From the NCBI RefSeq assembly GCF_000585375.1, contig NZ_KK073874.1, positions 8,715,913 to 8,779,912 on the forward strand: a DNA stretch of 64,000 bases, read 5' to 3'. This document shows, one piece after another, positions 30,572 to 43,419 of the stretch (position 1 is the first letter of the stretch; each line of letters begins with the position of its first letter). This DNA is from Cryptosporangium arvum DSM 44712 (GTDB lineage Bacteria > Actinomycetota > Actinomycetes > Mycobacteriales > Cryptosporangiaceae). The translations under genes were made by a program, and so were the position numbers. The notes under the pieces were generated by a model, which saw only the letters and a list, made by a program, of their open reading frames with translations, was not told the origin of the DNA and ran no database searches.

Positions 30572-31228
30572 CTAGCTGTCGCGGGCCGAGACCAGGCCGC
30601 TCTCGTAGGCGGCGATGACGAGCTGGGCCCGGTCGCGGGCGGTGAGTTTGTCGAGAAGGCGGCCGATGTGGGTTTTCACGGTGGCCGCGCTGAGGTGCAG
30701 GCGGTCGGCGATCTCGGTGTTCGAGAGGCCGCGGGCGACGAGGAGCAGCACCTCGCGCTCGCGGGGGGTGACGCCGTTGAGGGCCGGGGTGGGGAGCGGG
30801 CGTTCGGCCTCGGTGAAGCGGGCGATCATCCGCCGGGTGATCGTGGGGGCGAGCAGCGCGTCGCCGGCCGCGACGACGCGGATCGCGGCCAGGAGGTCGG
30901 CCGGGGGTGCGTCCTTGAGCAGGAAGCCGCTGGCTCCGGCGCGCAGTGCACCGTAGACGTACTCGTCGAGGTCGAACGTGGTGAGGATCAGGACGTGGCT
31001 GCCAGGCACCCGCTCGCAGATGCGCCGGGTGGCCGCGACCCCGTCGAGCTCGGGCATCCGGACGTCCATCAGCACGACGTCGGGGCGCAGGCGCACGGCG
31101 AGTTCGACCGCCTCCAGCCCGTTGCCGGCCTCCCCGACCACGGTGAGCCCCTCGGCGGTCTCGACGAGCAGCCGGAAACTCCCCCGCACCAGCGCCTGAT
31201 CGTCCACCACCAGCACCCGGACGCTCAT
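30572..31228 (-). CDS. NarL/LuxR-type response regulator
   Basis: 218 residues. Receiver domain with VVDDQ (metal site), phospho-acceptor D55 in VLMDVRMPE and K105 in FLLKDAPP. LuxR-type helix-turn-helix at the C-terminus: LTPREREVLLLVARGLSNTEIADRLHLSAATVKTHIGRLLDKL in slightly varied form (starts GVTPRE). Its ATG overlaps the stop of the sensor kinase gene by four bases, so it is that kinase's partner. Confidence 0.92.
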   Translation of the reverse strand: MSVRVLVVDDQALVRGSFRLLVETAEGLTVVGEAGNGLEAVELAVRLRPDVVLMDVRMPELDGVAATRRICERVPGSHVLILTTFDLDEYVYGALRAGASGFLLKDAPPADLLAAIRVVAAGDALLAPTITRRMIARFTEAERPLPTPALNGVTPREREVLLLVARGLSNTEIADRLHLSAATVKTHIGRLLDKLTARDRAQLVIAAYESGLVSARDS

Positions 31229-32436
31229 GCGCTCTCCTCCCGGGCCGACGGGACCGCCGCCGCACGGCCGGCGGGAAGCGTCGCGATCAACCGGAAACCC
31301 GGCGGGCCCGGGCGTGGGCCCGCCTCCAGCTCGCCGCCGAAGAGGGCCACTCGTTCGCGGAGGCCGACGAGACCGTGGCCGCTCGGATCGGGCGCCGGCG
31401 GCGGCGACGTGGGCCCGTCGTCCTCGATCACGATCCGCAGGGTGCCGTCGGCCTCCGACAGTTCCACCCGGCACGTGGTGGGCCCGGCGTGCTTGACGAC
31501 GTTGGTCAGCCCCTCCTGCACCACGCGGTAGACGGCCAGCTGCACGGCGTCCGAATAGTGGCGTGGATCCACTCGCACGTCGGACGCGACGCGGACCCCG
31601 CCGGCGACCGCGAGCTCGACCACCGCGGGCAGCTCGGCCAGGCCGGGCGTCGGCGCGAACTCGGCGTCGGGGGTGCGCAGGACACCGAGCAGCCGGCGGA
31701 TGTCGGTGAGCGCGCCCCGGCTGGTCGCCTCGATCACCCGGAGCGCGTCGCGCGCCGCCTCCGGACGCTGCTCGACGACGTGGTTCGCGACGCCGGCCTG
31801 CACCGCGATCAGGCTCATGCTGTGCGCCACGACGTCGTGGAGCTCGCGGGCGATCTGCAGCCGCTCGTCGGCCACCACCCGCTCCGCGTCCCGGCGCCGG
31901 GCCTCCGCCGCCGCCTCCCGGCGCTCCCGCATGATCACCCCGGCCACCCAGAACCCGCCGTTGACGAACCACACGTAGGTGAGCACGGCGACGGCCGACG
32001 CCAGATCGCCGCCCTCGGCCCCGGACACGATCAGCGTGCCCGCGCTGACCACCAGCGTGGCCGCGAGCGCACCGACCACCCACCGCCAGGTGCAGCGCAA
32101 CGCGATCACGTACAGGACGATCGCGGTCGGGAACCATGGTTCGAGCGTGATGTCGAGCAACGTGGCGGTGATCAGCCCGCTCGCCGAGACCGCCCAGGCG
32201 GCCCGCGGCCACCGGCGACGCACCGCGATCGGGACGCCGATCACGAGCGCGAGCAGCACGGCCAACCAGAGGGGACCGCCGTAGTGCGGCTGGTCCGGCG
32301 GGAAGTCGGCCGGGTCGAACGTGCCGAACGCGATGTACAGGGTCACGTAGAACACCGCCGCGGCGACGTCGACGGCGACGAGCACCGCGTCGTTCACCCG
32401 GGGGGAGCGCACCACCCTGCGCAGCGCCGAAGTCAC
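31225..32436 (-). CDS. Sensor histidine kinase (HisKA_3 type)
   Basis: 403 residues from GTG 32436. Four to five N-terminal membrane helices (about 12-165) with little outside sequence, then a coiled stretch RERREAAAEARRRDAERVV, the HisKA_3 box ARELHDVVAHSMSLI with phospho-acceptor H200, and an HATPase domain with EGLTNVVKHA (N box), IEDDGP and GHGLVGLRERV. The layout resembles DesK/LiaS-like kinases that sense envelope stress within the membrane. The ABC exporter genes start divergently 131 bases away, as in many antibiotic-stress systems. A longer reading upstream is unlikely because it would run into the ABC promoter. Confidence 0.88.
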   Translation of the reverse strand: MTSALRRVVRSPRVNDAVLVAVDVAAAVFYVTLYIAFGTFDPADFPPDQPHYGGPLWLAVLLALVIGVPIAVRRRWPRAAWAVSASGLITATLLDITLEPWFPTAIVLYVIALRCTWRWVVGALAATLVVSAGTLIVSGAEGGDLASAVAVLTYVWFVNGGFWVAGVIMRERREAAAEARRRDAERVVADERLQIARELHDVVAHSMSLIAVQAGVANHVVEQRPEAARDALRVIEATSRGALTDIRRLLGVLRTPDAEFAPTPGLAELPAVVELAVAGGVRVASDVRVDPRHYSDAVQLAVYRVVQEGLTNVVKHAGPTTCRVELSEADGTLRIVIEDDGPTSPPPAPDPSGHGLVGLRERVALFGGELEAGPRPGPPGFRLIATLPAGRAAAVPSAREESA

Positions 32437-32567
32437 CGGCCGACCGTATCGGCCGCCCCCGACGAAAACATCCGACCGCGGCACGTCATCCCTGGGTAGG
32501 ACCCCGCCGGTCACGTCCAGACCCCGGTCCGATCCGGGCGGCGCCGGCACCGTCCACGGTGGAAACC

Positions 32568-33266
32568 ATGATCCGCATCGACACACTCACGAAGCGGTAC
32601 GGCAGCACGCTCGCCGTCGACCGCCTCTCGTTCACCGTGCCGCCGGGGCAGGTCACCGGCTTCCTCGGCGCGAACGGCGCGGGCAAGTCGACGACGCTGC
32701 GCGCGATCCTCGGCCTCGACCGGCCGACGTCCGGGCAGGCGCTCGTCCACGACCGGCCGTACTCCTCCTACCGGCACCCGCTGCGCGTGGTGGGCGCCGC
32801 GCTCGACGCGTCCGCCGCCCACGGCGGCCTCCGCGCCCGCACCCACCTGCTGGCGCTCGCCCGCAGCAACGGCATCACGGCCGAGCGCGTCGACGCCGTG
32901 CTCGACGAGGTCGGGCTGGGGAACGTCGCCCGGCGGCGGATCCGCGCCCTCTCGCTCGGCATGAGGCAACGGCTCGCGATCGGCGGCGCGCTGCTCGGCG
33001 AGCCCGAGGCGCTGCTGTTCGACGAACCGCTCAACGGCCTGGACCCGGAGGGGATCCGCTGGTTCCGCGCTCTCACGGCACGGCTGGCCGGCGAGGGACG
33101 GGCGGTGCTGATCTCCAGCCACCTGATGTCCGAGATGGCCAGGACCGCCGACCGCGTCGTGATCATCGGGCAGGGCCGGCTGCTGGCGGAGGAGCCGCTG
33201 GCCGAGCTGGGCCCGTCGCTCGAAGAGGCCTACGTACGACTCACCGAAGGAGCAACCCGTGTCTGA
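32568..33266 (+). CDS. ABC transporter ATP-binding protein
   Basis: 232 residues. Walker A GANGAGKST, signature LSLGMRQRL, Walker B ALLFDEPLNGLDP and switch histidine SSHL are intact. IRIDTLTKRYGSTLAVDRLSF is typical of single-domain export ATPases of the bacitracin/daunorubicin type. ATG 32568 is preferred over GTG 32559. The permease gene starts within its last eight bases. Divergent from the two-component operon, which probably controls it. Confidence 0.9.
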   Translation: MIRIDTLTKRYGSTLAVDRLSFTVPPGQVTGFLGANGAGKSTTLRAILGLDRPTSGQALVHDRPYSSYRHPLRVVGAALDASAAHGGLRARTHLLALARSNGITAERVDAVLDEVGLGNVARRRIRALSLGMRQRLAIGGALLGEPEALLFDEPLNGLDPEGIRWFRALTARLAGEGRAVLISSHLMSEMARTADRVVIIGQGRLLAEEPLAELGPSLEEAYVRLTEGATRV

Positions 33267-34023
33267 CGTCGTCTCGTCCCAATGGCTCGTGCTGCGGTCG
33301 GTGCGGTCCACCGCCTGGCTGCTCGGATCGCTGCTCCTGTTGCTCGCCGGGTGCTGGGGCGCGGGCACGCTCATGGTGTCGGCCTGGGACGCCGCGTCCC
33401 CGGCCGACCGTGCGCTCTTCGAGAGCGCGGACATGACCGTGATCTCGGGTCCGCTGGCCCAGCTGGTGCTCGGGATCGTCGGCGTGCTCGCGGTGACCGC
33501 CGAGTACCGCACCGGCTCGATCACGACGACGCTGACCGCGGTGCCGAACCGGCTGCGGCTGCTGGGAGCGAAGACGCTCGTGGTCGCCGGGCTGGCGACG
33601 GCGGCGGCGCTCGTCGTCGCGGTGGGGTCGGTGGTGCTGTCGCTGCAGATCGCCGGTGACCGGCCGGCGCCGATCGATCCGTGGACGTCGGCCGGTGACA
33701 TGGTGGGGACCGGAGCGGCGAACATGGCGGTGTGCCTCGCCGCCGCGCTCACCGGGGTCGGGCTCGGGGCCGCACTGCGTTCGTCGGCCGGTGCGGTGAT
33801 GGCCGTCGCGGGGCTGTTGTTCGTCGCCCCGGTGATCGCGGTCTACCTTCCGGACCCCTGGGACACGCGGATCGCGAGCGTGCTGCCCTCGTCGCTGGCG
33901 GCTCAGCTCTCCGGTGACGACTACTACTCGCTGGGGGTGGCCGGCGCGGTCTGCGCGCTGGTCGCCTACCCGCTGGTGGCTCTGACCGCCGGTGGCCTGA
34001 CCCTGCTCAAGAGGGATGCCTGA
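33259..34023 (+). CDS. ABC-2-type permease
   Basis: 254 residues from GTG 33259. Six membrane helices: TAWLLGSLLLLLAGCWGAG, LAQLVLGIVGVLAVTAEY, LVVAGLATAAALVVAVGSVV, and three more to the C-terminus. ITTTLTAVPNRLRLLGAKTL follows the pattern of ABC-2 permeases. It pairs with the overlapping ATPase gene as an exporter of an unknown, perhaps antibiotic or lipid, substrate. Confidence 0.84.
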   Translation: MSDVVSSQWLVLRSVRSTAWLLGSLLLLLAGCWGAGTLMVSAWDAASPADRALFESADMTVISGPLAQLVLGIVGVLAVTAEYRTGSITTTLTAVPNRLRLLGAKTLVVAGLATAAALVVAVGSVVLSLQIAGDRPAPIDPWTSAGDMVGTGAANMAVCLAAALTGVGLGAALRSSAGAVMAVAGLLFVAPVIAVYLPDPWDTRIASVLPSSLAAQLSGDDYYSLGVAGAVCALVAYPLVALTAGGLTLLKRDA

Positions 34024-34088: not shown

Positions 34089-34658
34089 TCAATCCCGGGG
34101 GCTGGGGAACAGGCTCGACCAGAACGAGCCCGATTCTTCGGTGGTCGGAGCCACCGAGGGCGGCGGAGCCGCCGGTGCGGAGCTGGAACGGCGGGTGGGC
34201 TTCGGCCGCGCGGACCGGGACGCCGGAGCCTGCACCTCCGGTGCCGGCCCGCGCGGGGCCCGGGCGGACGGTGACTTGCTGACCGGCGAAGGGGTCGGGG
34301 AAGCCGACGGCGAGCGAGTGGAGGGTGCCGTCGACTCCCCCGGGATCGGTAGCGCCGAGTCCGCGTCGACACCGCCGAGCATGCTGGCGGCCAGCGCCAC
34401 CGTGTACAGCAGGCCGCCGACCGCGGCCAGGGCCAGCGCCCAGGTGACCCGCCGCTTCCGACGTCCACTGCGGTCCACGAAGATCGCACGCTCCTGGGAC
34501 ACTCCGCCGCGCCGGTGACGCCCGGCCGCCGGCAGCACCTGCTGCAGGACGGTCGGGTCGTCACCGGCCCCGGACCGGGGAACGGGTCCGGTCACGGGTG
34601 CTGGCCCGGGCACCGGTGCCAGCACCGCGGTCTCGGCGTCGCGTGCGGAGCGAACCAT
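34089..34658 (-). CDS. Single-span membrane protein, last gene of the conservon operon
   Basis: 189 residues. A cytoplasmic N-terminus of about 70 residues ends in RSGRRKRRVTWALALAAVGG; the membrane helix runs about 72-95, and the outside part is Ser/Pro/Ala-rich (SPSASPTPSPVSKSPS) ending in SFWSSLFPSP. No known domain. It starts four bases after the binding-protein gene, so it belongs to the same transcript. A protein of the same layout is encoded next to the second binding protein (41298-41972). It may tether or present the lipoprotein; this is inference. Confidence 0.68.
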   Translation of the reverse strand: MVRSARDAETAVLAPVPGPAPVTGPVPRSGAGDDPTVLQQVLPAAGRHRRGGVSQERAIFVDRSGRRKRRVTWALALAAVGGLLYTVALAASMLGGVDADSALPIPGESTAPSTRSPSASPTPSPVSKSPSARAPRGPAPEVQAPASRSARPKPTRRSSSAPAAPPPSVAPTTEESGSFWSSLFPSPRD

Positions 34659-34662
34659 CGGA

Positions 34663-35862
34663 TCAGCCCTTGATCGTGGTCCAGGCCTGAGCCCAGTCCT
34701 CGTAGTCCTTGCACCTGATGTTCGTCCGTCCGTCCAGGCACGAGGAGATCGGCGTCGTCCAGTACCAGATCTTCCGCGCGTAGGACGCGTCGCCGGCGTG
34801 GAACGTCTTGCAGTGGTTCGGGTCGGTCGTGAACGCGCACGACTTCGAGTTGCCGGGCGACTCCCCGAAGTACTCCGCGACCTGCGCGTTGACCTGCGGG
34901 CTGACGATGTGGTCGAACCACTTGTACGCGCAGTTCTTGTGCGGCGACTTCGCCCCGACCATCCAGGTGTCCGACCAGCCGGTGGCGCCCTCCTCGGGCA
35001 GGATGGCCTTGATGTTCGTGCCCTCGGCCTCGGTGAGGTTCGCGATCACCTGCCACGCGGTACCGACGATCGCGTCACCGGCCTTGAACGCCGCGACCTC
35101 CTCGGTGTAGTCGCTCCAGTACTCGCTCACGCTCGACTTCTGCTGTTCGAGCAGCGCGATCGCCGCGGCGAACTGCGTGTCGTCGAGCGCGTACGGGTTC
35201 TTGATGCCGAGGTCGGGCTGGTGGCGCATCAGGTACAGCGCGGCGTCGGCGATGTAGATCGGCGAGTCGTACGCGGTGACCTTGCCGACCACCGACAGCG
35301 GCGGCGCGAACACCGCCGACCACGACGTCGGCGCGGGCTTCACCTTGTCCTGGTGGTACATCAGCAGGTTCGCGCCCCAGCCGTGCGGGACGCCGTAGGG
35401 CACTCCCTTCACGCTGTTCCAGGTCTGCTTCTTCAGGAAGCCGTAGATGTCCTTGTAGTTCGGCACCAGGTCGGTGTTCACCGGCTCCACGTCACCGTCG
35501 GCGATCAGCCGCAGCGACGCGTCGCCGGACGCCGAGATGACGTCGTACTTCCCGGTCTTCATCAGCGTCACGGCTTCGTCGGACGTGTTGAAGACCTTCA
35601 CCGACACCTGACAACCGGTCGCCTGCTCGAACGGCGTGACCCAGTCGATCGCCGGGTCGGTGCTGCCGTCCTCGGCGTAGCCGGCCCAGGACAGCACGCT
35701 CAGCGCGCCCTCGCCCGGGCCGACCTGCTCGAGCACCGGGAGCTTCGGCGGCGTGAACTCGCCACCGGCCTCGCTGGTGTCCGAGCTGTTGTCCTTGCTG
35801 TTGCACGCGGTCGCGGCGAGGACGAGGGCCAGGACGGCTGCGGTCACGCGGATCGCCCTCAC
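34663..35862 (-). CDS. PotD-like solute-binding lipoprotein in a conservon operon
   Basis: 399 residues from GTG 35862. Signal peptide with lipobox AATAC (Cys about 20). The mature part resembles extracellular solute-binding proteins of the spermidine/putrescine PotD group: ALSVLSWAGYAEDG, FEQATGCQVSVKVFNTSDEAV, YDVISASGDASLRLIADGDVEPV, GVPYGVPHGWGANLLMY, TAYDSPIYIADAALYLM. Six or more cysteines in the mature chain suggest disulphides. Its GTG overlaps the CvnD stop (GTGA), i.e. translational coupling to a signalling GTPase. No permease or ATPase is nearby, so a sensing rather than import role is suggested. Confidence 0.82.
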   Translation of the reverse strand: MRAIRVTAAVLALVLAATACNSKDNSSDTSEAGGEFTPPKLPVLEQVGPGEGALSVLSWAGYAEDGSTDPAIDWVTPFEQATGCQVSVKVFNTSDEAVTLMKTGKYDVISASGDASLRLIADGDVEPVNTDLVPNYKDIYGFLKKQTWNSVKGVPYGVPHGWGANLLMYHQDKVKPAPTSWSAVFAPPLSVVGKVTAYDSPIYIADAALYLMRHQPDLGIKNPYALDDTQFAAAIALLEQQKSSVSEYWSDYTEEVAAFKAGDAIVGTAWQVIANLTEAEGTNIKAILPEEGATGWSDTWMVGAKSPHKNCAYKWFDHIVSPQVNAQVAEYFGESPGNSKSCAFTTDPNHCKTFHAGDASYARKIWYWTTPISSCLDGRTNIRCKDYEDWAQAWTTIKG

Positions 35863-36458
35863 GTGAGCGGAACCGGTGTGCGTGCGGCGAGCGGAGCGGT
35901 GCCCCGGGCCCGGAGCACGTACTCGACGAGCGCGATGAGCAGCTGCTTCGTTGAATCCCGCCGACGGGCGTCACAGGTGAGGATCGGCACCTCCGGCCGG
36001 ATCGTGAGCGCTTCGCGCAGCTCACGGATGGTGTTGGGCTGCACGCCGTCGAAGCAGTTCACCCCGACGACGTAGGGCAGGCCGCACTGCTCGAAGAAGT
36101 CGACGGCCGAGAAGCAGTCCGCCAGCCGGCGCGGGTCGACGAGCACGACCGCGCCGATCGCACCGCGCACCAGCTCGTCCCACATGAACCAGAAGCGGTT
36201 CTGGCCGGGCGTCCCGAACAGGTAGAGGATCAGTTCCTGGTCGATCGTGATGCGGCCGAAGTCCATCGCGACCGTGGTGGTCTTCTTGCCGGCCACCGCC
36301 GTCGTGTCGTCGACGTCGACCGAGGCCATCGTCATTATCGCTTCGGTGGTGAGCGGGCGGATCTCGGAGACCGAGCCGACCATCGTCGTCTTGCCGACGC
36401 CGAAACCGCCGGCGACCACGATCTTGGCCGAGGTGGCCCGAGGGCTGGTCATGTCCAT
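35859..36458 (-). CDS. CvnD-type small GTPase (conservon)
   Basis: 199 residues. G1 P-loop GGFGVGKTT, switch region with FGRITIDQELILYLFGTPGQNRFWFMWDEL (G3-like), and GVNCFDGV (G4-like N-x-x-D variant) identify the conservon GTPase, related to MglA/Rab. It likely cycles between GDP and GTP under control of the roadblock protein CvnB. Gene start is 13 bases after the CvnB stop; in typical conservons a DUF742 gene (CvnC) sits here and is missing. The stop overlaps the solute-binding protein start. Confidence 0.88.
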   Translation of the reverse strand: MDMTSPRATSAKIVVAGGFGVGKTTMVGSVSEIRPLTTEAIMTMASVDVDDTTAVAGKKTTTVAMDFGRITIDQELILYLFGTPGQNRFWFMWDELVRGAIGAVVLVDPRRLADCFSAVDFFEQCGLPYVVGVNCFDGVQPNTIRELREALTIRPEVPILTCDARRRDSTKQLLIALVEYVLRARGTAPLAARTPVPLT

Positions 36459-36471
36459 GCTGATCCCTCCC

Positions 36472-36894
36472 TCACAGCGCCAGCGACGTGTGCAGTTCGG
36501 AGCGCAGCGCCGGGGTCAGCACCTGGCCGACGCGCTCGACGAGAAGCGCCATCTCGTACCCCACCTGGCCGATGTCGCAGGCCCGGGAGGCCAGCACCGC
36601 CAGCGACGAGCCGTCGCTTATCGACATCACGAGCAGGAATCCGGTGTCCATCTCGACGACGGTCTGGCTGACGCTGCCACCTTCGAAGCACATCGCCGCG
36701 CCGTGCGTGAGGCTCACCAGACCCGAGGCGATCGCGGAGAGCTGATCGGCCCGGTCCCGCGGCAGGCCGTCGGAGACCGCAAGCAACAGCCCGTCGGCCG
36801 AGACGGCGACCGCGTGGGCGATACCGGGAACGCGGTTGGCGAAGTTGCCCACCAGCCAGTTGAGGTTCTGCGCATCGTGGCTCAGCGAGCTCAC
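36472..36894 (-). CDS. Roadblock/LC7 protein CvnB (conservon)
   Basis: 140 residues from GTG 36894, with AAGGAGG directly upstream; longer in-frame readings fall inside cvnA. Roadblock fold: [63 protein letters not shown], then [27 protein letters not shown]. Roadblock proteins regulate small GTPases and bridge sensor and GTPase in conservons. It overlaps the CvnA stop by four bases and precedes CvnD. Confidence 0.9.
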
Positions 36895-39800
36895 ATTTCC
36901 TCCTTGGAGCCGGTCCCTGCGGGGCCGCCGGCCTGCCGGCCCTGCTCGAGACCACTGCGGTAACTGGATAGAACGCCTCGCACCGCCTCGGGTGAACGGC
37001 GAGTGGCGGGAAGAGCCTCGGAGCGCTCCACCTTGCCGGGCACGTAGTGCGCCATCGGGACGCGCTTCGGGAGCCCCGACGACGTCGTGCTGGTCGGCTG
37101 GGTTTCCGCGGCCGCCTGCGCGGCCCGCCATCCGGCGTCCGCCGGCGACTTCCAGCTCTCCATCGGTTCCGACGCCTTGAGCGGTGCCGCGGGAACCGGG
37201 GACGCCACCGGTGCGGCGGGAGCCGCCGGTGCGGTGGTCGCGACCGGACGCACGGGCAGCGACGGGGTGGCCGGAACCGACGGAGCCGGCGGGGCCTGAC
37301 GCACGGGCGGCGCGACGAGCGTCGTGCCGTTGGCGTGGTGGGTCAGCGGGGTTTCGCCCACCGTGACGTGCACCCGAGGTGCCGGGGGCTGCACTCCCGC
37401 CGCTTCCGGGACGCGCGGCAGGTTCCGGACCCGGAACCAGTCGTTCTCCGTCGCCTCGAAGATCGGCAGCGGCATCTCGATCGTCGGATCGGGAGCCGGT
37501 GCCGGCTGAGCCGGCAGCGCGTGCACCGGCAGCGGCGCCAACGCCTGCGCCGGAACCGGCCGGTCCGAGAACGGCGACCGGGTCGGGAGCGGCTGCTCGT
37601 CGGAGGGCCGCACCGGCAGCGCGGGCTCCGGCCGGGACGGGGTCCTGGTCGGCAGCGACGGCTCCGCCAGTGACCGGGTGGGCAGGGGTTGGGTGGGCAG
37701 GGGTTGGGTGGGCAGGGGCTGGGTCGGCTGCGCCCAGCTGGCCTCGATCGGCTCGACCGGTGTCGCGTCGATGATCGGTGCACCGTACGAGGTGTACGTG
37801 CCGCCCAGGGCCGAGGTCGCCGAGGGCGGAGTCTCGACGACCTCGGCGGTCCAGTTCGCCGCGAGCGGCGAGGCGTCCACCGCGGCGGGCGTCTCGGCCG
37901 CGCGCCGCTCGGCGGCCGTCTGGAACCCGTTCCACGACTCCGCCCGCACCACCGGAGCCGGCTGCCGCCGCGGCATCGACGGCTCCGCCGGTGCCGGAGG
38001 CGGTACGGGCGCCGCGGCGGGTGCCGACGTCGTCCCGGTGCCGTGGAACGTGGTCGAGTGGGCGCCGTTCTGCGCGTCGTACTGGTACGCGGTGGGCCCG
38101 CCGAATCCACCGGTCGGCACGTACGAGCGCGGCTCGGGCCGGTCGACCCGCTCCGAGACGACCCGCTCCACCGGACGCATCGACACGTCCCGCGGCCCGG
38201 CCGGCGGCTGGTCCCCGTGCAGCACGCCGGTCGGCAGCGTGATCATCACCAGGACGCCACCACCGGCGGCGTCACGCAGCATGACCTTGATGCCGTGCCG
38301 CGAGGCCAGCCGGCCGACCACGAACAGGCCCATCATCCGCGAGACCGCGATGTCGAACACCGGCGGCTTCGCGAGCCGCTCGTTGAACTCCGCCAGCTGC
38401 GTCCGCGACATTCCGATGCCCTGGTCGATCACCTCGACCACGAGCTGGTTGCCCTCGCGGCGGGCGTCCACGGTCACGTCCGTGCGCGGCGACGAGAACG
38501 ACGTCGCGTTCTCCAGGATCTCCGCGATCAGGTGGACGGTGTCGTTCACCGCGCCCGAGGCGATCTGGACCGAGTCGTCGATGGAGCCGAGCTTGACCCG
38601 GGTGTACTGCTCCACCTCGGCCGCGGCCGCGCGGAGGACGTCGACGAGCGGAGCCGGCTTGGACCAGCTACGACCGGAGTCCGCGCCGCCGAGCACCAGC
38701 AGGTTCTCGTCGTTACGACGCATCCGGGTGGCCAGGTGGTCGAGCTTGAACAGCTCGGCCAGCCGGTCCGGGTCACGCTCGCCCTGCTCCAGACCGTCGA
38801 TCAACCGGATCAGCCGGTCGACCAGCAGCTGCGAGCGGCGGGACAGGTTGACGAACATCGCCGAGACGCTCTGCCGCAGGCGCGCCTGCTCGGACGCGAC
38901 CCGGACCGCCTCCAGGTGAATGGCGTTGAACGCCTGTGCCACCTGGCCGATCTCGTCGGTGGAGCGCACCTCCAGGGTGCGGGCCACGGTCTCCGCCGAG
39001 GCCTGCTCCGCCGTTTTCGAGTCGGCTTCCTGCAGCTTGCGGACGACGTCGGGCAGGCTCTGGTACGCCACCTCCAGCGCGGAGGAACGCAGGCTCACCA
39101 GCGGGCGGATCATCGAGCGGGCGACCGCGAGCGACACCAGCAGCGCCACGATCAGGGCCGCCAGCGCGGCCGAGATCACGCCGATCGCCTTGCGCACCGC
39201 GTCGGACCGGAAATCGCCGGCCGCTTCCACGGTGATCGCGTTGATCCGCGTCTCGACCGACCGGAGCAATTTGTTCTCGCGGTCGCTGGTCTCCAGCCAC
39301 GTCTCGAGGCTGAACGACAGCTTGTTGCCGAGACCGGCGTTCTGGGCCCGGGTCCGCAGCTGCTGGTAGGTCAGCTCCTGGGTCACCGTGCTGTTACGGA
39401 TCTCCTGCTGCTTCGGGGTGCCGCTCAGCGCGAACTGGGCGCGGTAGGCGCTCTCGTCCGAGACCGCGGCGCGGAAGGATCCGAACGTGTCGTTCGTGAA
39501 CTGGCTGTTGCCGTCCTCCAGCGCGGTACGCACGACGATCTGCTGCTGCCAGACCGCTTCCTTGTACTTCGCGAACGCGGCGACGGCAGTGAGCTGATTG
39601 GACAGCGTCTCGTCGCCGGCGGAGGCGGCAGCGAGCCGCTCTTTCATCTGCAGCAGGCTGGTGATCAGCTGGCCGTAGATCGTCACCGCCGCGCCCACTC
39701 GGACGCCGCTGCCCTGCCGAGCCTGCTCGAGCACCGCGTTCCGGTTACGGGACAGCGTGCTGAATCCGCGCTTCACCTGCTCGTATTCGGAGCTGATCGG

Positions 39801-40286
39801 GGCGGCGATCTCTTTGTCGAGCTGCTCGTACTCGGCGAGGAACAGACGGAGGTCCTCGTCGGTGGTGCGGGCGTGCGCGGTGAAGCTCTTCAGCGTCGAC
39901 GCCTCGGCCCCCTGGCCGGGCGTGGTGACGTAGGCCGCCGCGGCCGAACGCTCGGTCTGCAGCACGTCGACGAGCGACGACGACTCGTTGCCCAGCCGCG
40001 CGTAGTCCTGGATGCGGTTCGCGGCCTGCGCTTCGTCGATGACCGACCGGGCGAGCACGCCGGAGAACACGAACATCGCGACCAGCGGGACCACCGTGAT
40101 CAGGATGACCTTGGTGCGGATCGAGGTGTTGCCGAAGAACCGGCTACCCGGCAGGCGGGTGCGCTGATCGGAGCCGCCGATCTCGGTGGAAGTTCTCTCC
40201 CCGGTGGGCGGGCCGACCGTCCGGAATCGCTCCGACGAGTCCTCCTCGGGCCGCGCCGGGCTGGGGTCCAGAAGGGACGTGGACAC
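36891..40286 (-). CDS. CvnA-type sensor with nitrate/nitrite-sensing (NIT) domain
   Basis: 1131 residues from GTG 40286, set by GGAGG four bases upstream; an in-frame GTG at 40334 has no ribosome site. After a cytoplasmic start and helix 1 (about 58-78, [20 protein letters not shown]) comes an outside NIT domain (about 95-345; [20 protein letters not shown] is its typical opening). Helix 2 (about 367-390), a HAMP-like region and an HATPase follow: [12 protein letters not shown] (N box), [11 protein letters not shown] (G1). A clear DHp histidine box is not seen. The last 400 residues are Pro/Ala-rich. Family members sense small ligands; ATP binding is expected, phosphotransfer uncertain. Confidence 0.88.
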
Positions 40287-40399
40287 GACTCCTCCGTCCT
40301 GTGACGAAACACTTTCGCGGAGGAATTTGACCACAACGGAATGGAGAAAGGAAAGCCGGAACGCAATTTCCGTAGCTCACCATTCACTTCATCAATTCC

Positions 40400-40429
40400 T
40401 CATGAACGGACTTCATGAAATCCTCATGA
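40400..40429. promoter_or_regulatory. TCATGA direct repeats in the cvnA/response-regulator gap
   Basis: TCATGA occurs at 40400, 40413 and 40424, the last two 11 bases apart (CTTCATGAAATCCTCATGAG). Half-sites one helical turn apart fit OmpR-type regulators. The same arrangement recurs at 43403-43419. The remainder of this 245-base gap shows nothing else I can name. Confidence 0.55.
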
Positions 40430-40531
40430 GGACGGTCACCGAGCGATGCGCGACCAATACGCCGAGCGCTTCGGATAACCAATTACATCTGACGGACACA
40501 CGAACTCGGTATCGGCTGGCAGGATGAACCG

Positions 40532-41218
40532 GTGCGCGTACTTGTGGTCGAAGACGAGGCCGAGCTGGGATACGCGGTCGCCGCCGCTTTACGCGGAACC
40601 GGCATGGCGGTGGACCTGGTCGGCGACATTCCCCCCGCCGACGAAGCGATCTCGACACATCCCTACAGCTGCGTGGTCTTCGACCGGATGCTCCCGGCCG
40701 GCGACAGCATCGGCTACGTGGACGCCCGGCGGCGTGGCGGCTGGTCCACGCCGGTGCTGTTCCTGACCGCACGCGACACCGTCGCCGACCGCGTGGCCGG
40801 CTTCACCCACGGCGGCGACGACTACCTGTTGAAGCCGTTCGCGGCGGCGGAGCTCGTCGCGCGGGTGCGCAGCCTGTGCCGACGCACGGCACGCAGCGGC
40901 TCGCAGCCCCCGCCGATCGCCCGCGTCGGCGACCTGGAGATCGACGTCCGGCGCCGCCAGATCCGGCGCGCAGGCGTCCTGCTGACGATGACCGCCAAGG
41001 AGTTCGCGGTGCTCGAGGCCCTGGCCGCGGCGGACGCCACAGTGGTCAGTCGCTCGCAGCTGATCGAGCACTGCTGGGACTCCGGCACCGAGCCGATGTC
41101 CAACGTGGTCGACGTCGTCATCGCGCAACTTCGGCGCAAACTGGGCTTCCCCGCGCTCATCCACACCGTGCGCGGCGCGGGTTACGTGCTCGAGGTACGC
41201 CAGCCGGAAGGCGTCTGA
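40532..41218 (+). CDS. OmpR-type response regulator, orphan
   Basis: 228 residues from GTG 40532. Receiver with VVEDE, phospho-acceptor D51 in VVFDRMLPAGD, and K101 in LLKPF; winged-helix DNA-binding domain about 130-223 (RVGDLEIDVRRRQIRRAG, LTMTAKEFAVLEALA, LRRKLGFPALIHTVRGAGYVLEV). No conventional histidine kinase is adjacent; the divergent CvnA protein is the nearest ATP-binding sensor. Probably binds the TCATGA repeats in its own promoter region and at 43403-43419, though this is inferred. Confidence 0.9.
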   Translation: MRVLVVEDEAELGYAVAAALRGTGMAVDLVGDIPPADEAISTHPYSCVVFDRMLPAGDSIGYVDARRRGGWSTPVLFLTARDTVADRVAGFTHGGDDYLLKPFAAAELVARVRSLCRRTARSGSQPPPIARVGDLEIDVRRRQIRRAGVLLTMTAKEFAVLEALAAADATVVSRSQLIEHCWDSGTEPMSNVVDVVIAQLRRKLGFPALIHTVRGAGYVLEVRQPEGV

Positions 41219-41297: not shown

Positions 41298-41972
41298 ATG
41301 GCTCGAGTGTCGTTACCGGGCGTACTAGAAGACGCTCCACCCACCGAGACAACCGAACCCACACCGAACGAAACGTCCAGATCGGGCCGCCATCGGGCGC
41401 CCGAGAAGGTGACCGAGAGTCCACGACCGCGGCGCGAGCGCCCGGCGTTCTCGTCGTCACCTGCTGGCCGTGCGTTCCGGGTGACGTTGTGTCTGGCCAG
41501 CCTCGTGGGGCTGGCCTATGCGACGGTCATGGTCCTCGGCCTGCACAGACCGACCGGCCAGGAGGCCCTCGGGTTACCCACCCGGCAGTCCGGCGAAGGC
41601 GGCCAGGTCGCCACGATCGGACCGATCGACGTCCAGGCCGAGGACGAAGCACTCAGCTCCTCCTCGGCGTCCCCCTCCGCGACCTCGACCCCGTCGACCG
41701 CGCCCAACGACGCTTCGCCGTCGCCGGTCGCGGACGAGCCGGCGGGTAACGCCGCGGCACCACCGCCGGCTTCGGACTCGGGCTCCGGCAACGACTCGGC
41801 CGGGGCTCCACCGGCCGACGACTCCGCCCCGACCGCCGGATCCGACTCCAGCGGCTCCGAGTCCAGCAGTTCCGGCTCGAGCAGTTCCGGGTCCAGCAGC
41901 TCCGACGACGAAGACGACGACCGCGGCAAGCTCATCGACGTCAACCTCCTCGGAATCCGTATCTCGATCTGA
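41298..41972 (+). CDS. Single-span membrane protein next to second binding protein
   Basis: 224 residues. N-terminal cytoplasmic part of about 55 residues rich in Pro, Glu and Arg, then one helix (about 57-78, RVTLCLASLVGLAYATVMVLG), and a long outside region rich in Ser, Pro and Asp (SSSASPSATSTPST, GSSSSGSSSSDDEDDD) ending hydrophobically in VNLLGIRISI. No domain recognised. Same layout as 34089-34658, including an RVT entry into the membrane helix; homology is possible but weak by eye. It follows the response regulator and converges on the second solute-binding gene. Confidence 0.62.
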   Translation: MARVSLPGVLEDAPPTETTEPTPNETSRSGRHRAPEKVTESPRPRRERPAFSSSPAGRAFRVTLCLASLVGLAYATVMVLGLHRPTGQEALGLPTRQSGEGGQVATIGPIDVQAEDEALSSSSASPSATSTPSTAPNDASPSPVADEPAGNAAAPPPASDSGSGNDSAGAPPADDSAPTAGSDSSGSESSSSGSSSSGSSSSDDEDDDRGKLIDVNLLGIRISI

Positions 41973-42027: not shown

Positions 42028-43239
42028 TCAACCCTTGATGGACGTCCAGGCTTGGGTCCAGGCCGAGTAGTCCTTGCACTTCACGTCGGTGCGGCCGTCC
42101 AGGCACTGGCTGATCGGCGTCGACCAGTACCAGATCTGCTTGGCGTACGACGCGTCACCGGCGTGGTAGGTCGTGCAGTGGTTCTTGTCCGCGGTGAACG
42201 CGCACGCCTTCTCGTTGGCCGGCGACTCCCCGAAGTACTCCGCGACCTGCGCGTTGGCCTTCGGCGACACGATGTGGTCGAGCCACTTGTAGGCGCACGT
42301 CTTGTGCTTGGACTTGGAGCTCACCATCCAGGTGTCCGACCAGCCGGTCGCACCCTCGGTGGGCAGCACCGCGTCGACCTTCGCACCCTCGGCCTTCGCC
42401 ACGTTCGCGATGACCTGCCAGGTCGTGCCGATCACCGAGTCACCGGACTTGAACGCCGAGACTTCCTTCAGGTAGTCCGACCAGTACTCGCCGACGTTCG
42501 CCTTCTGCTTCTTCAAAAGGGCGACCGAGGCGTCGAACTGCTTGTCGTCGAGCGCGTACGGGTTCTTGATCCCGAGTTCCGGCTTGGTCTTCATCAGGTA
42601 CAGCGCGGCATCGGCGATGTAGATCGGCGAGTCGTACGCGGTGACCTTGCCCTTGGTCGCGGCGTTGTCCTCGAACACCGCGCTCCACGACGTCGGCGCC
42701 GGCTTGACGACGTCCGTCCGGTACATCAGCAGGTTCGCGCCCCACCCGTGCGGCACCCCGTACGAGACCCCGTCGACGCTGTTCCACTTCTGGTTCTTCA
42801 GGAAGTCGAAGACGTCGGCGTAGTTCGGCACCAGGTCGGTCGTCACCGGCTCGACGTCACCGGCGGCGATCAGCCGCAACGACGCGTCACCCGACGCGGA
42901 AACCACGTCGTACTGGCCGGTCTTCATGAGGCTGACGGCCTCGTCGGACGTACCGAACACCTTCGCGTTGACCTGGCAGCCGGTCGCCTTCTCGAACGGC
43001 GTGACCCAGTCCACCTTCGGGTCGTTCGAGCCGTCCTCGGCGTACCCGGCCCAGGACAGAACGTTCAGCGCGCCCTCGGGCGTCCCGAGCTCCTTCAAGG
43101 CCTCCAACTTCGGGGGCTTGAAGCCGGAACCGGAGTCCGACGATTCGGTCTCGTCACTCGTCCCGCAGGCCGCAGCGGACAGCACCAGCGCTGCGACGAC
43201 AGCACCGGCGAACCTGCGGCTTAACGGACGGATCTTCAT
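42028..43239 (-). CDS. PotD-like solute-binding lipoprotein, second copy
   Basis: 403 residues from ATG 43239. Lipobox SAAAC (Cys about 25). The mature sequence matches the protein at 34663-35862 along its whole length, by eye about 70-75% identical (not computed), including NLLMY, TAYDSPIYIADAALYLM, GATGWSDTWMV and the cysteines near the C-terminus (CLDGRT, KCKDY). It is a single-gene unit; its promoter region carries TCATGA repeats like those beside cvnA. No membrane permease or ATPase is linked. Ligand unknown; the PotD-like group binds polyamines among others. Confidence 0.84.
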   Translation of the reverse strand: MKIRPLSRRFAGAVVAALVLSAAACGTSDETESSDSGSGFKPPKLEALKELGTPEGALNVLSWAGYAEDGSNDPKVDWVTPFEKATGCQVNAKVFGTSDEAVSLMKTGQYDVVSASGDASLRLIAAGDVEPVTTDLVPNYADVFDFLKNQKWNSVDGVSYGVPHGWGANLLMYRTDVVKPAPTSWSAVFEDNAATKGKVTAYDSPIYIADAALYLMKTKPELGIKNPYALDDKQFDASVALLKKQKANVGEYWSDYLKEVSAFKSGDSVIGTTWQVIANVAKAEGAKVDAVLPTEGATGWSDTWMVSSKSKHKTCAYKWLDHIVSPKANAQVAEYFGESPANEKACAFTADKNHCTTYHAGDASYAKQIWYWSTPISQCLDGRTDVKCKDYSAWTQAWTSIKG

Positions 43240-43402
43240 CGTGCCTGCCTTCTGCAGAATCTCACTCCTAACGAATAGCGGCACCTCGATGGCTGAGGGG
43301 TGCCGCAGCGCGCAACGCCTCCCAACGTCGCGCGGCGCAATTCCACCACAGCCGGAGCGAACGAGGAAGTAGATCCCTCCAGATTGGAAAGAATTGCTTT
43401 CC

Positions 43403-43419
43403 TCATGAATTCTTCATGA
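43403..43419. promoter_or_regulatory. TCATGA direct repeats upstream of the second binding-protein gene and MFS gene
   Basis: TCATGA at 43403 and 43414, exactly 11 bases apart, in CCTCATGAATTCTTCATGAT. Same half-site and spacing as 40413-40429. It lies between the divergent lipoprotein and MFS starts, so it could serve either. Confidence 0.5.

Follow-up and report, generated by a model that had tools for sequence, protein, structure and literature searches.

Within a 64,000-nucleotide stretch of the Cryptosporangium arvum DSM 44712 genome (contig NZ_KK073874.1, positions 8,715,913 to 8,779,912), hereafter called the window, lies an unusual conservon from which CvnC is missing and in whose operon a gene for a solute-binding protein (SBP) has taken a place. 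In common with the CvnA-B-C-D conservons, the locus encodes, in the same order, a CvnA with NIT, HAMP and HATPase domains, a roadblock protein CvnB and an MglA-type small GTPase CvnD; it differs from them by the absence of CvnC, by the SBP in the operon, and by a divergent OmpR-family response regulator with DNA boxes of its own. We propose, tentatively and with a little less than even confidence, that a conservon linked to leuA was duplicated and rebuilt as a sensor that is fed by the SBP and controls a private regulon.

A preliminary description of this DNA had reported five minus-strand genes lying head to tail, and the open reading frames and Pfam matches bear this out. The gene for CvnA (36891-40334, assigned by Pfam, motifs and hydropathy) is followed by cvnB (36472-36894; Pfam Robl_LC7), cvnD (35859-36458; Pfam ATP_bind_1), the SBP gene (34663-35862), and a gene whose single-span product has no Pfam match (34089-34658). 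Neighboring genes overlap by 4 bp at the cvnA/cvnB junction, cvnD and the SBP gene share a GTGA, and 4 bp lie between the SBP gene and the single-span gene. The missing CvnC, also reported earlier, is equally clear: just 13 bp separate cvnB from cvnD, with no DUF742 gene between them and no DUF742 match at the locus, which rules out a CvnC hidden in the gap or fused to a neighbor. For comparison, three further genomes of the genus (G001, G002 and G003, the window's own being G000) and a fifth genome of the family (G004) were used. The cvnB-cvnD gaps in G001 (25 bp) and G003 (12 bp) are likewise too short for cvnC. Among 25 CvnD loci in the five genomes, CvnC lies between CvnB and CvnD in 21 and is absent from three, the remaining one (in G004) being unjudgeable at a contig edge, and the three loci without CvnC are precisely the three with the SBP. 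Five CvnD positions are common to these three and absent from the 22 others, and show no clear pattern by which the loss of CvnC could be recognized.

A DUF742 gene elsewhere in the genome might serve the locus, a possibility the preliminary description had itself named. Six DUF742 matches occur in the G000 genome, none of them at the SBP locus; the five above the cut-off sit in the other five conservons, and the sixth (G000:9002954), considered as a CvnC acting in trans, was rejected as a sub-threshold match that scores better as MarR. Another conservon may still supply CvnC to the SBP locus in trans.

The layout cvnA-cvnB-cvnD-SBP is found in three of the four genus genomes (G000, G001 and G003). 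The overlap of cvnD with the SBP gene, first noticed in the window, is kept at 4 bp in all three copies, and the linkage is therefore conserved in relatives, as the earlier reading demanded. In each carrier the regulator, a second single-span gene and a lone SBP gene (SBP2) adjoin the operon; the first single-span gene is inverted in G003, and is thus not a fixed operon member. The order without DUF742 that the preliminary description had singled out was not found outside the genus in the genomes searched, where the large searches scored the first four or five candidates per genome (seven for the regulator), so that absence there is not proof. At E≤1e-160, the SBP had matches in 26 of 397 genomes of the order, comprising the three carriers and 23 genomes with one copy each, adjoined by importer genes. 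The CvnA sensor domain matched 4 of 397 genomes of the order at E≤1e-30, all of them of the genus and none beyond it, and in a phylum sample at E≤1e-20 the single match among 396 genomes was the window's own. Similarly, no SBP beside a conservon was seen in other taxa among the best 80 of 255 named relatives, all of them importer-linked, in a scan that covered this SBP family (other SBP families next to conservons were outside its scope) and from which records near the window's genome may be missing.

In a leuA tree (supports of 95 and 72), the non-carrier G002 pairs with the carrier G001. Because of this pairing, and on little data, the ancestor of the sampled genomes probably had the locus, and G002 would have lost it. 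A second gene, in which G003 stands at 84% to all three others, would place G003 outermost and also puts G002 nearest G001 (the ask row of G003 was left out of this comparison). Both G002 and G004 lack the sensor locus, the TCATGA boxes described below and the importer-type SBP, their best SBP matches being 43% and 49%.

The nearest relative of the locus is a complete conservon between leuA and ask-asd (gene names by Pfam), the CvnD proteins being 78% alike. CvnB is 92-96% identical in amino acid sequence to that of the leuA-linked conservon, yet the third codon positions of CvnB pairs from the same genome are just 59-68% identical; the likeness therefore reflects constraint and not recent copying, and gene conversion is ruled out as its cause. 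CvnA comprises a transmembrane segment at about residues 70-100, an extracytoplasmic NIT domain, a second transmembrane segment (TM2) at about 378-414, HAMP, a DHp-like stretch, HATPase, a long proline-rich linker and a C-terminal LPKR. Pfam matches for NIT and HATPase_c exceed their cut-offs, HAMP scores 24.7 bits against a cut-off of 25, and the DHp-like stretch was recognized from its motif, with H533 within LDHLATR. Between the SBP and leuA types, the core of CvnA is well conserved (TM2-HAMP 85%, DHp 89% and HATPase 83% identical), whereas the NIT domain is just 42% identical. Within types, NIT identity is 79% for the SBP type (three genomes) versus 67% for the leuA type (four genomes), and the seven other CvnA segments compared follow the opposite trend, being better conserved in the leuA type; the leuA-type CvnD of G002 was left out of the segment comparison. 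To judge by its parts, the locus seems to have been pieced together from duplicated portions of three loci elsewhere in the genome.

The SBP, a lipoprotein as judged by its N-terminus, is assigned to the YdcS/PotD kind by Pfam (SBP_bac_8), NCBIfam and an AF2 model (pLDDT 86.6), for which the best match in the PDB is YdcS (6nlp, TMt 0.83). While family and fold are thus shared with the YdcSTUV and PotABCD importers, the conservon SBP has no importer permease or ATPase gene in its operon and carries glutamate at two conserved lysine positions. Across the same best 80 named relatives, at least one importer ATPase or permease gene adjoins the SBP gene in every case, and all three importer genes do so in 77, the other three lying near contig ends. 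A copy of the importer with its own SBP is present in G000 about 53 kb from the conservon SBP; the ABC ATPase gene near the operon (32559-33266) is part of a convergent exporter-like pair. Judged by these relationships, the conservon SBP is a descendant of the binding protein of a YdcSTUV/Pot-like importer.

A quick tree places the conservon SBPs in one clade (SH-aLRT 100, stem 0.36), with SBP2 and the importer SBPs mixing by genome. In G001, SBP2 (L113 14959-16170) and the importer SBP (L115 8558-9772) are 98.4% identical, and their third codon positions are 99-100% identical after the first 80 codons versus 64% within those 80, a pattern which therefore indicates gene conversion. The conservon SBP of G001, unlike SBP2, has not been homogenized with the importer SBP. 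An invariance of at least 97% across 106 importer SBPs holds for 153 positions, of which 149, 148 and 147 are retained in the three conservon SBPs and 152, 153 and 152 in the SBP2 proteins. Four changes are common to all three conservon SBPs: G21N, V235I, K239E and K254E. Both lysines are retained in SBP2; for this reason, and given its homogenization with the importer SBP in G001, SBP2 is less likely to be a second receptor.

Alignment with E. coli PotD shows that W270, W296 and D298 of the SBP correspond to W229, W255 and D257, which bind spermidine. K254 falls within the stretch aligned to PotD D212-E222, which is described as being held between PotB and PotC, an E220A/G221A/E222A mutant of it binding only weakly to PotABC (PMC11414716). 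In the AF2 model, positions 239 and 254 lie in the helices 227-243 and 251-260 (model numbering is one less).

It could be supposed that the SBP is simply an extra transport SBP for the distant importer, and that the conservon, with which it would merely be co-expressed, uses its NIT domain to sense some other signal directly. NIT domains can bind ligands directly, the importer is present in all three carriers, and the SBP retains both a lipoprotein-like N-terminus and the invariant residues of its family, all as such a role would have it. We nevertheless consider it improbable, since K239E and K254E occur in all three conservon SBPs and neither occurs in SBP2, since the conservon SBPs form a separate, long-stemmed clade that has escaped the homogenization seen for SBP2 in G001, and since the SBP gene overlaps cvnD in all three copies.

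Divergent from cvnA is the gene for the OmpR-family response regulator (40532-41218, plus strand; Pfam and alignment), which has no adjoining kinase of its own and went unmentioned in the preliminary description, even though the span of the latter ended at 41218 and so took it in. Alignment identifies D51, T79 and K101 as its phospho-acceptor aspartate, threonine and lysine. Two predicted operator pairs lie between cvnA and the regulator (40389-40429), namely TCATGA-N5-TCATGA at 40413-40429 and a one-mismatch pair at 40389-40405, and another is predicted at 43403-43419, upstream of SBP2 (42028-43239, minus strand), a lone SBP that is close to the importer's own. The pattern had been derived from the window, G001 and G003 ahead of the genome-wide scan, which counted two copies in G000, two in G001, three in G003, and none in the non-carriers G002 and G004. 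Each copy sits in one of two places, the cvnA-regulator interval or the region upstream of SBP2. For comparison, composition predicts about 0.025 copies for the genome, a reversed control yielded none, and the two exact matches in the window stand against none in 100 shuffles. A weaker control is provided by matches with up to two mismatches, of which the window holds 3 versus 0.49 expected, 1 of 100 shuffles also reaching 3.

At six promoters, those of cvnA and SBP2 in the three carriers, the spacing of the half-sites is 11 bp throughout. A common TGTGRTSRAAT element, preceded at 19-20 bp by CTTYY, follows the downstream half-site of the proximal pair at a distance of 58-59 or 72 bp. In the cvnA promoters, this proximal pair deviates by one base in one or both of its half-sites. 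The combined promoter-like element, CTTYY-N14..16-TGTGRTSRAATK, is located at 40324-40355 before cvnA and at 43339-43369 before SBP2 (both on the minus strand), and in each carrier genome it is found at these two places only; as the pattern was derived from the six promoters, only its absence elsewhere is informative. Just 3' of the element lies a GTG at 40286 that is likely the true start of cvnA, rather than 40334, because a GGAGG site and the GTG codon recur in two relatives (three genomes in all). Direct repeats at about one helical turn would fit binding by an OmpR-type regulator. Moreover, because the private box joins the regulator and SBP2 to cvnA, the output of the conservon may be transcription through the regulator, besides or instead of the GTPase.

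The conservation of these operators and of the promoter spacing also bears on the view that the locus is a decaying duplicate, which lost cvnC by drift and whose neighbors are hitch-hikers. Although cvnC is gone and the whole set was probably lost in G002, which leuA places beside the carrier G001, the reading frames of the locus are open with coding bias, and the three copies share not only 79% of the NIT domain but 90-93% of CvnB in amino acid identity. Decay is thus very improbable.

In the sensor that we propose instead, the duplicated leuA-linked conservon would have been rebuilt into a solute-sensing module. The lipoprotein SBP, copied from a YdcSTUV/Pot-like importer, would bind a ligand like that of the importer and report it, by contacting the NIT domain of CvnA, to the kinase instead of to permeases. 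CvnA would then shift its kinase state and act via CvnB on CvnD, without CvnC, and would also act, probably by phosphotransfer, on the adjoining regulator, whose binding to the TCATGA half-sites before cvnA/regulator and before SBP2 would provide feedback on the sensor and, should regulation be positive, more SBP2 for the importer. That a binding protein feeds a signal to CvnA had already been suggested in the preliminary description. This suggestion gains from the conservation of the CvnC-less SBP conservon, from the retention of the SBP invariants with few changes, and from a CvnA sensor domain that differs from that of the nearest paralogue while the core does not; what it overlooked were the regulator, SBP2 and the private box. 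A bolder version, possible but doubtful, holds that the conservon has become a receptor-fed two-component circuit in which CvnC is functionally replaced by the OmpR-type regulator. A ligand-sensing loop, equipped with an operator of its own, would then consist of the SBP, the NIT kinase, the regulator and SBP2, leaving the roadblock-GTPase pair as a side branch or a timer.

By analogy, our best guess for the ligand of the conservon SBP is a polyamine-type amine. In E. coli, ydcSTUV is followed by patD, which encodes gamma-aminobutyraldehyde dehydrogenase. An Amycolatopsis aminobutyraldehyde dehydrogenase, scoring above the PRK13473 cut-off, has relatives in 11 of the 80 importer loci (the query's own included), 10 of the 11 with a match of 300 residues or more; the three importer loci of the genus yielded none. 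Beside the importer itself lie a GntR/FCD-type regulator and a Cache/PDC-like protein (L017 10912-12448). Relatives of the former are found in 57 and of the latter in 56 of the 80 named loci, hinting at a ligand sensor that belongs to the importer.

Several observations weigh against the proposed sensor. The ligand is unsure because the SBP falls below the YdcS cut-off of NCBIfam (its best match, at 329 bits versus 725) and because the acidic residues D168 and E171 of PotD are not conserved; the importer's own SBP is likewise below the cut-off, with 356 bits. K254, adjoining a two-residue gap in the alignment, pairs with PotD N213, which is described as one of the residues in spermidine binding, touching the scoop loop (PMC11414716), and K254E may therefore change ligand choice instead of, or besides, docking. 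At the two lysine positions, moreover, R and V are found in E. coli YdcS. Furthermore, the carriers number just three genomes of one genus, and although importer and sensor locus occur together in all three (as judged by the SBP gene), their joint presence and absence may reflect one or two events.

The remaining difficulties concern how CvnA would reach the regulator. Conservons are described as signaling via the GTPase and not a regulator (PMC4316618). The nearest relatives of the regulator (73-76%), in G000, G001 and G002, adjoin a HisKA kinase, and the receiver domain is 82% like that of this kinase-paired paralogue in G000 and G001 and 74% in G003, with alpha-1 nearly unchanged, as would be seen had the partner stayed the same. 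Pfam recognizes a HisKA domain in the kinase of the paralogous locus but none in CvnA. Finally, a HisKA_3 kinase (31225-32586) is encoded about 1.5 kb beyond the operon, and its like lies beside the locus in G001 and G003. These points lend themselves to an explanation in which another kinase (the neighboring HisKA_3 kinase, a scattered one, or that of the paralogous locus in G000 and G001) drives a regulator whose role is confined to the expression of the cvn operon and SBP2, while CvnA signals only through CvnB and CvnD with CvnC from another conservon. The near identity of CvnB to that of a complete conservon makes such cross-talk plausible, and five other DUF742 genes above the cut-off are at hand.

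We regard this explanation as unlikely, though it deserves attention. In G003, for which a completeness of 99% is given, the kinase of the paralogous locus finds no counterpart at E≤1e-20, and the regulator, besides its own copy, finds just one at E≤1e-45, with 47% identity, among seven candidates scored, yet the regulator and its boxes are still there. In G000 and G001 the HisKA_3 kinase is joined to a LuxR-type regulator of its own, and in all three carriers the OmpR-type regulator is divergent from cvnA. CvnA8 of S. coelicolor is described as autophosphorylating on histidine (PMC13343842). As the driver of the OmpR-type regulator we favor CvnA, with moderate confidence.

Other genes in and around the locus were also noted. 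The paralogous regulator/kinase locus also includes a gene that Pfam, applied to the G000 copy, marks as deacetylase/glycosyltransferase, as well as a single-span gene whose product is weakly like the single-span protein of the cvn operon. All five loci examined from other families of the order (L223-L227) hold regulator relatives in divergent pairs, about 2-4 kb apart, the one neighbor tested being a HisKA kinase (L225). The second single-span gene (41298-41972, plus strand) lies 3' of the regulator in all three carriers and encodes an acidic, disordered protein with a conserved C-terminal tail, KLIDVNLLGIRISI, of which 16 residues are identical between G000 and G003 (L114 7232-7843) and which is similar in G001; the tail suggests a function for an otherwise low-complexity protein. 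Adjoining the cvn operon on its other side (30572-34023) are genes for a LuxR-type regulator, the HisKA_3 kinase, the ABC ATPase and a membrane protein that has no Pfam match and is exporter-like by eye. Like genes flank the locus in G001 (L113 3981-7396), and a kinase and an exporter-like pair do so in G003 (L114 14773-17520).

By gene layout, the SBP gene sits in a predicted kinase operon, as is the case for SBP-activated sensor kinases. Among actinobacterial systems, GlnH-GlnX-PknG of Corynebacterium and Mycobacterium is similarly described as an SBP reporting to a non-transporter membrane protein, its output being a Ser/Thr kinase. That system uses another SBP and another membrane protein. 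The sensor kinases AgtS and AruS of Pseudomonas likewise have an SBP gene beside the kinase gene (PMC11113362); at the locus, by contrast, the role of the kinase falls to a CvnA, partnered by a roadblock protein and a GTPase. As for conservons, the accessories described in a survey of 485 genomes are CvnE (P450) and CvnF (GAF), overwhelmingly linked to a CvnA without a sensory domain (PMC13343842), in contrast to the NIT-containing CvnA of the SBP locus. As described there, the survey seeks cvnC and cvnD two and three genes from cvnA, and a CvnC-less operon would therefore not have its cvnD scored (PMC13343842).

No description of an SBP combined with a roadblock protein, GTPase and histidine kinase in actinobacteria was found in the literature searched, mainly open with few subscription papers, in agreement with the preliminary description, which knew of no published counterpart; nor did titles and abstract openings reveal an account of a CvnA with an ABC-transporter-type binding protein. 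The locus lacks one of the defining components of a conservon, CvnC, and by analogy may work like an SBP-fed sensor kinase. It also raises the question whether the GTPase can cycle in the absence of CvnC; MfpC, a homologue of CvnC, is described as the likely exchange factor (PMC13343842). The inputs and targets of conservons are largely open, and for one CvnA the locus makes both ends open to test, the input through an SBP of known family that probably binds an amine, and the output through the two promoters that carry the private box. Should the bolder version, the receptor-fed circuit, prove true, it would be, as far as our searches reach, the first conservon for which a candidate extracellular receptor, a candidate ligand class and candidate target promoters are encoded together.

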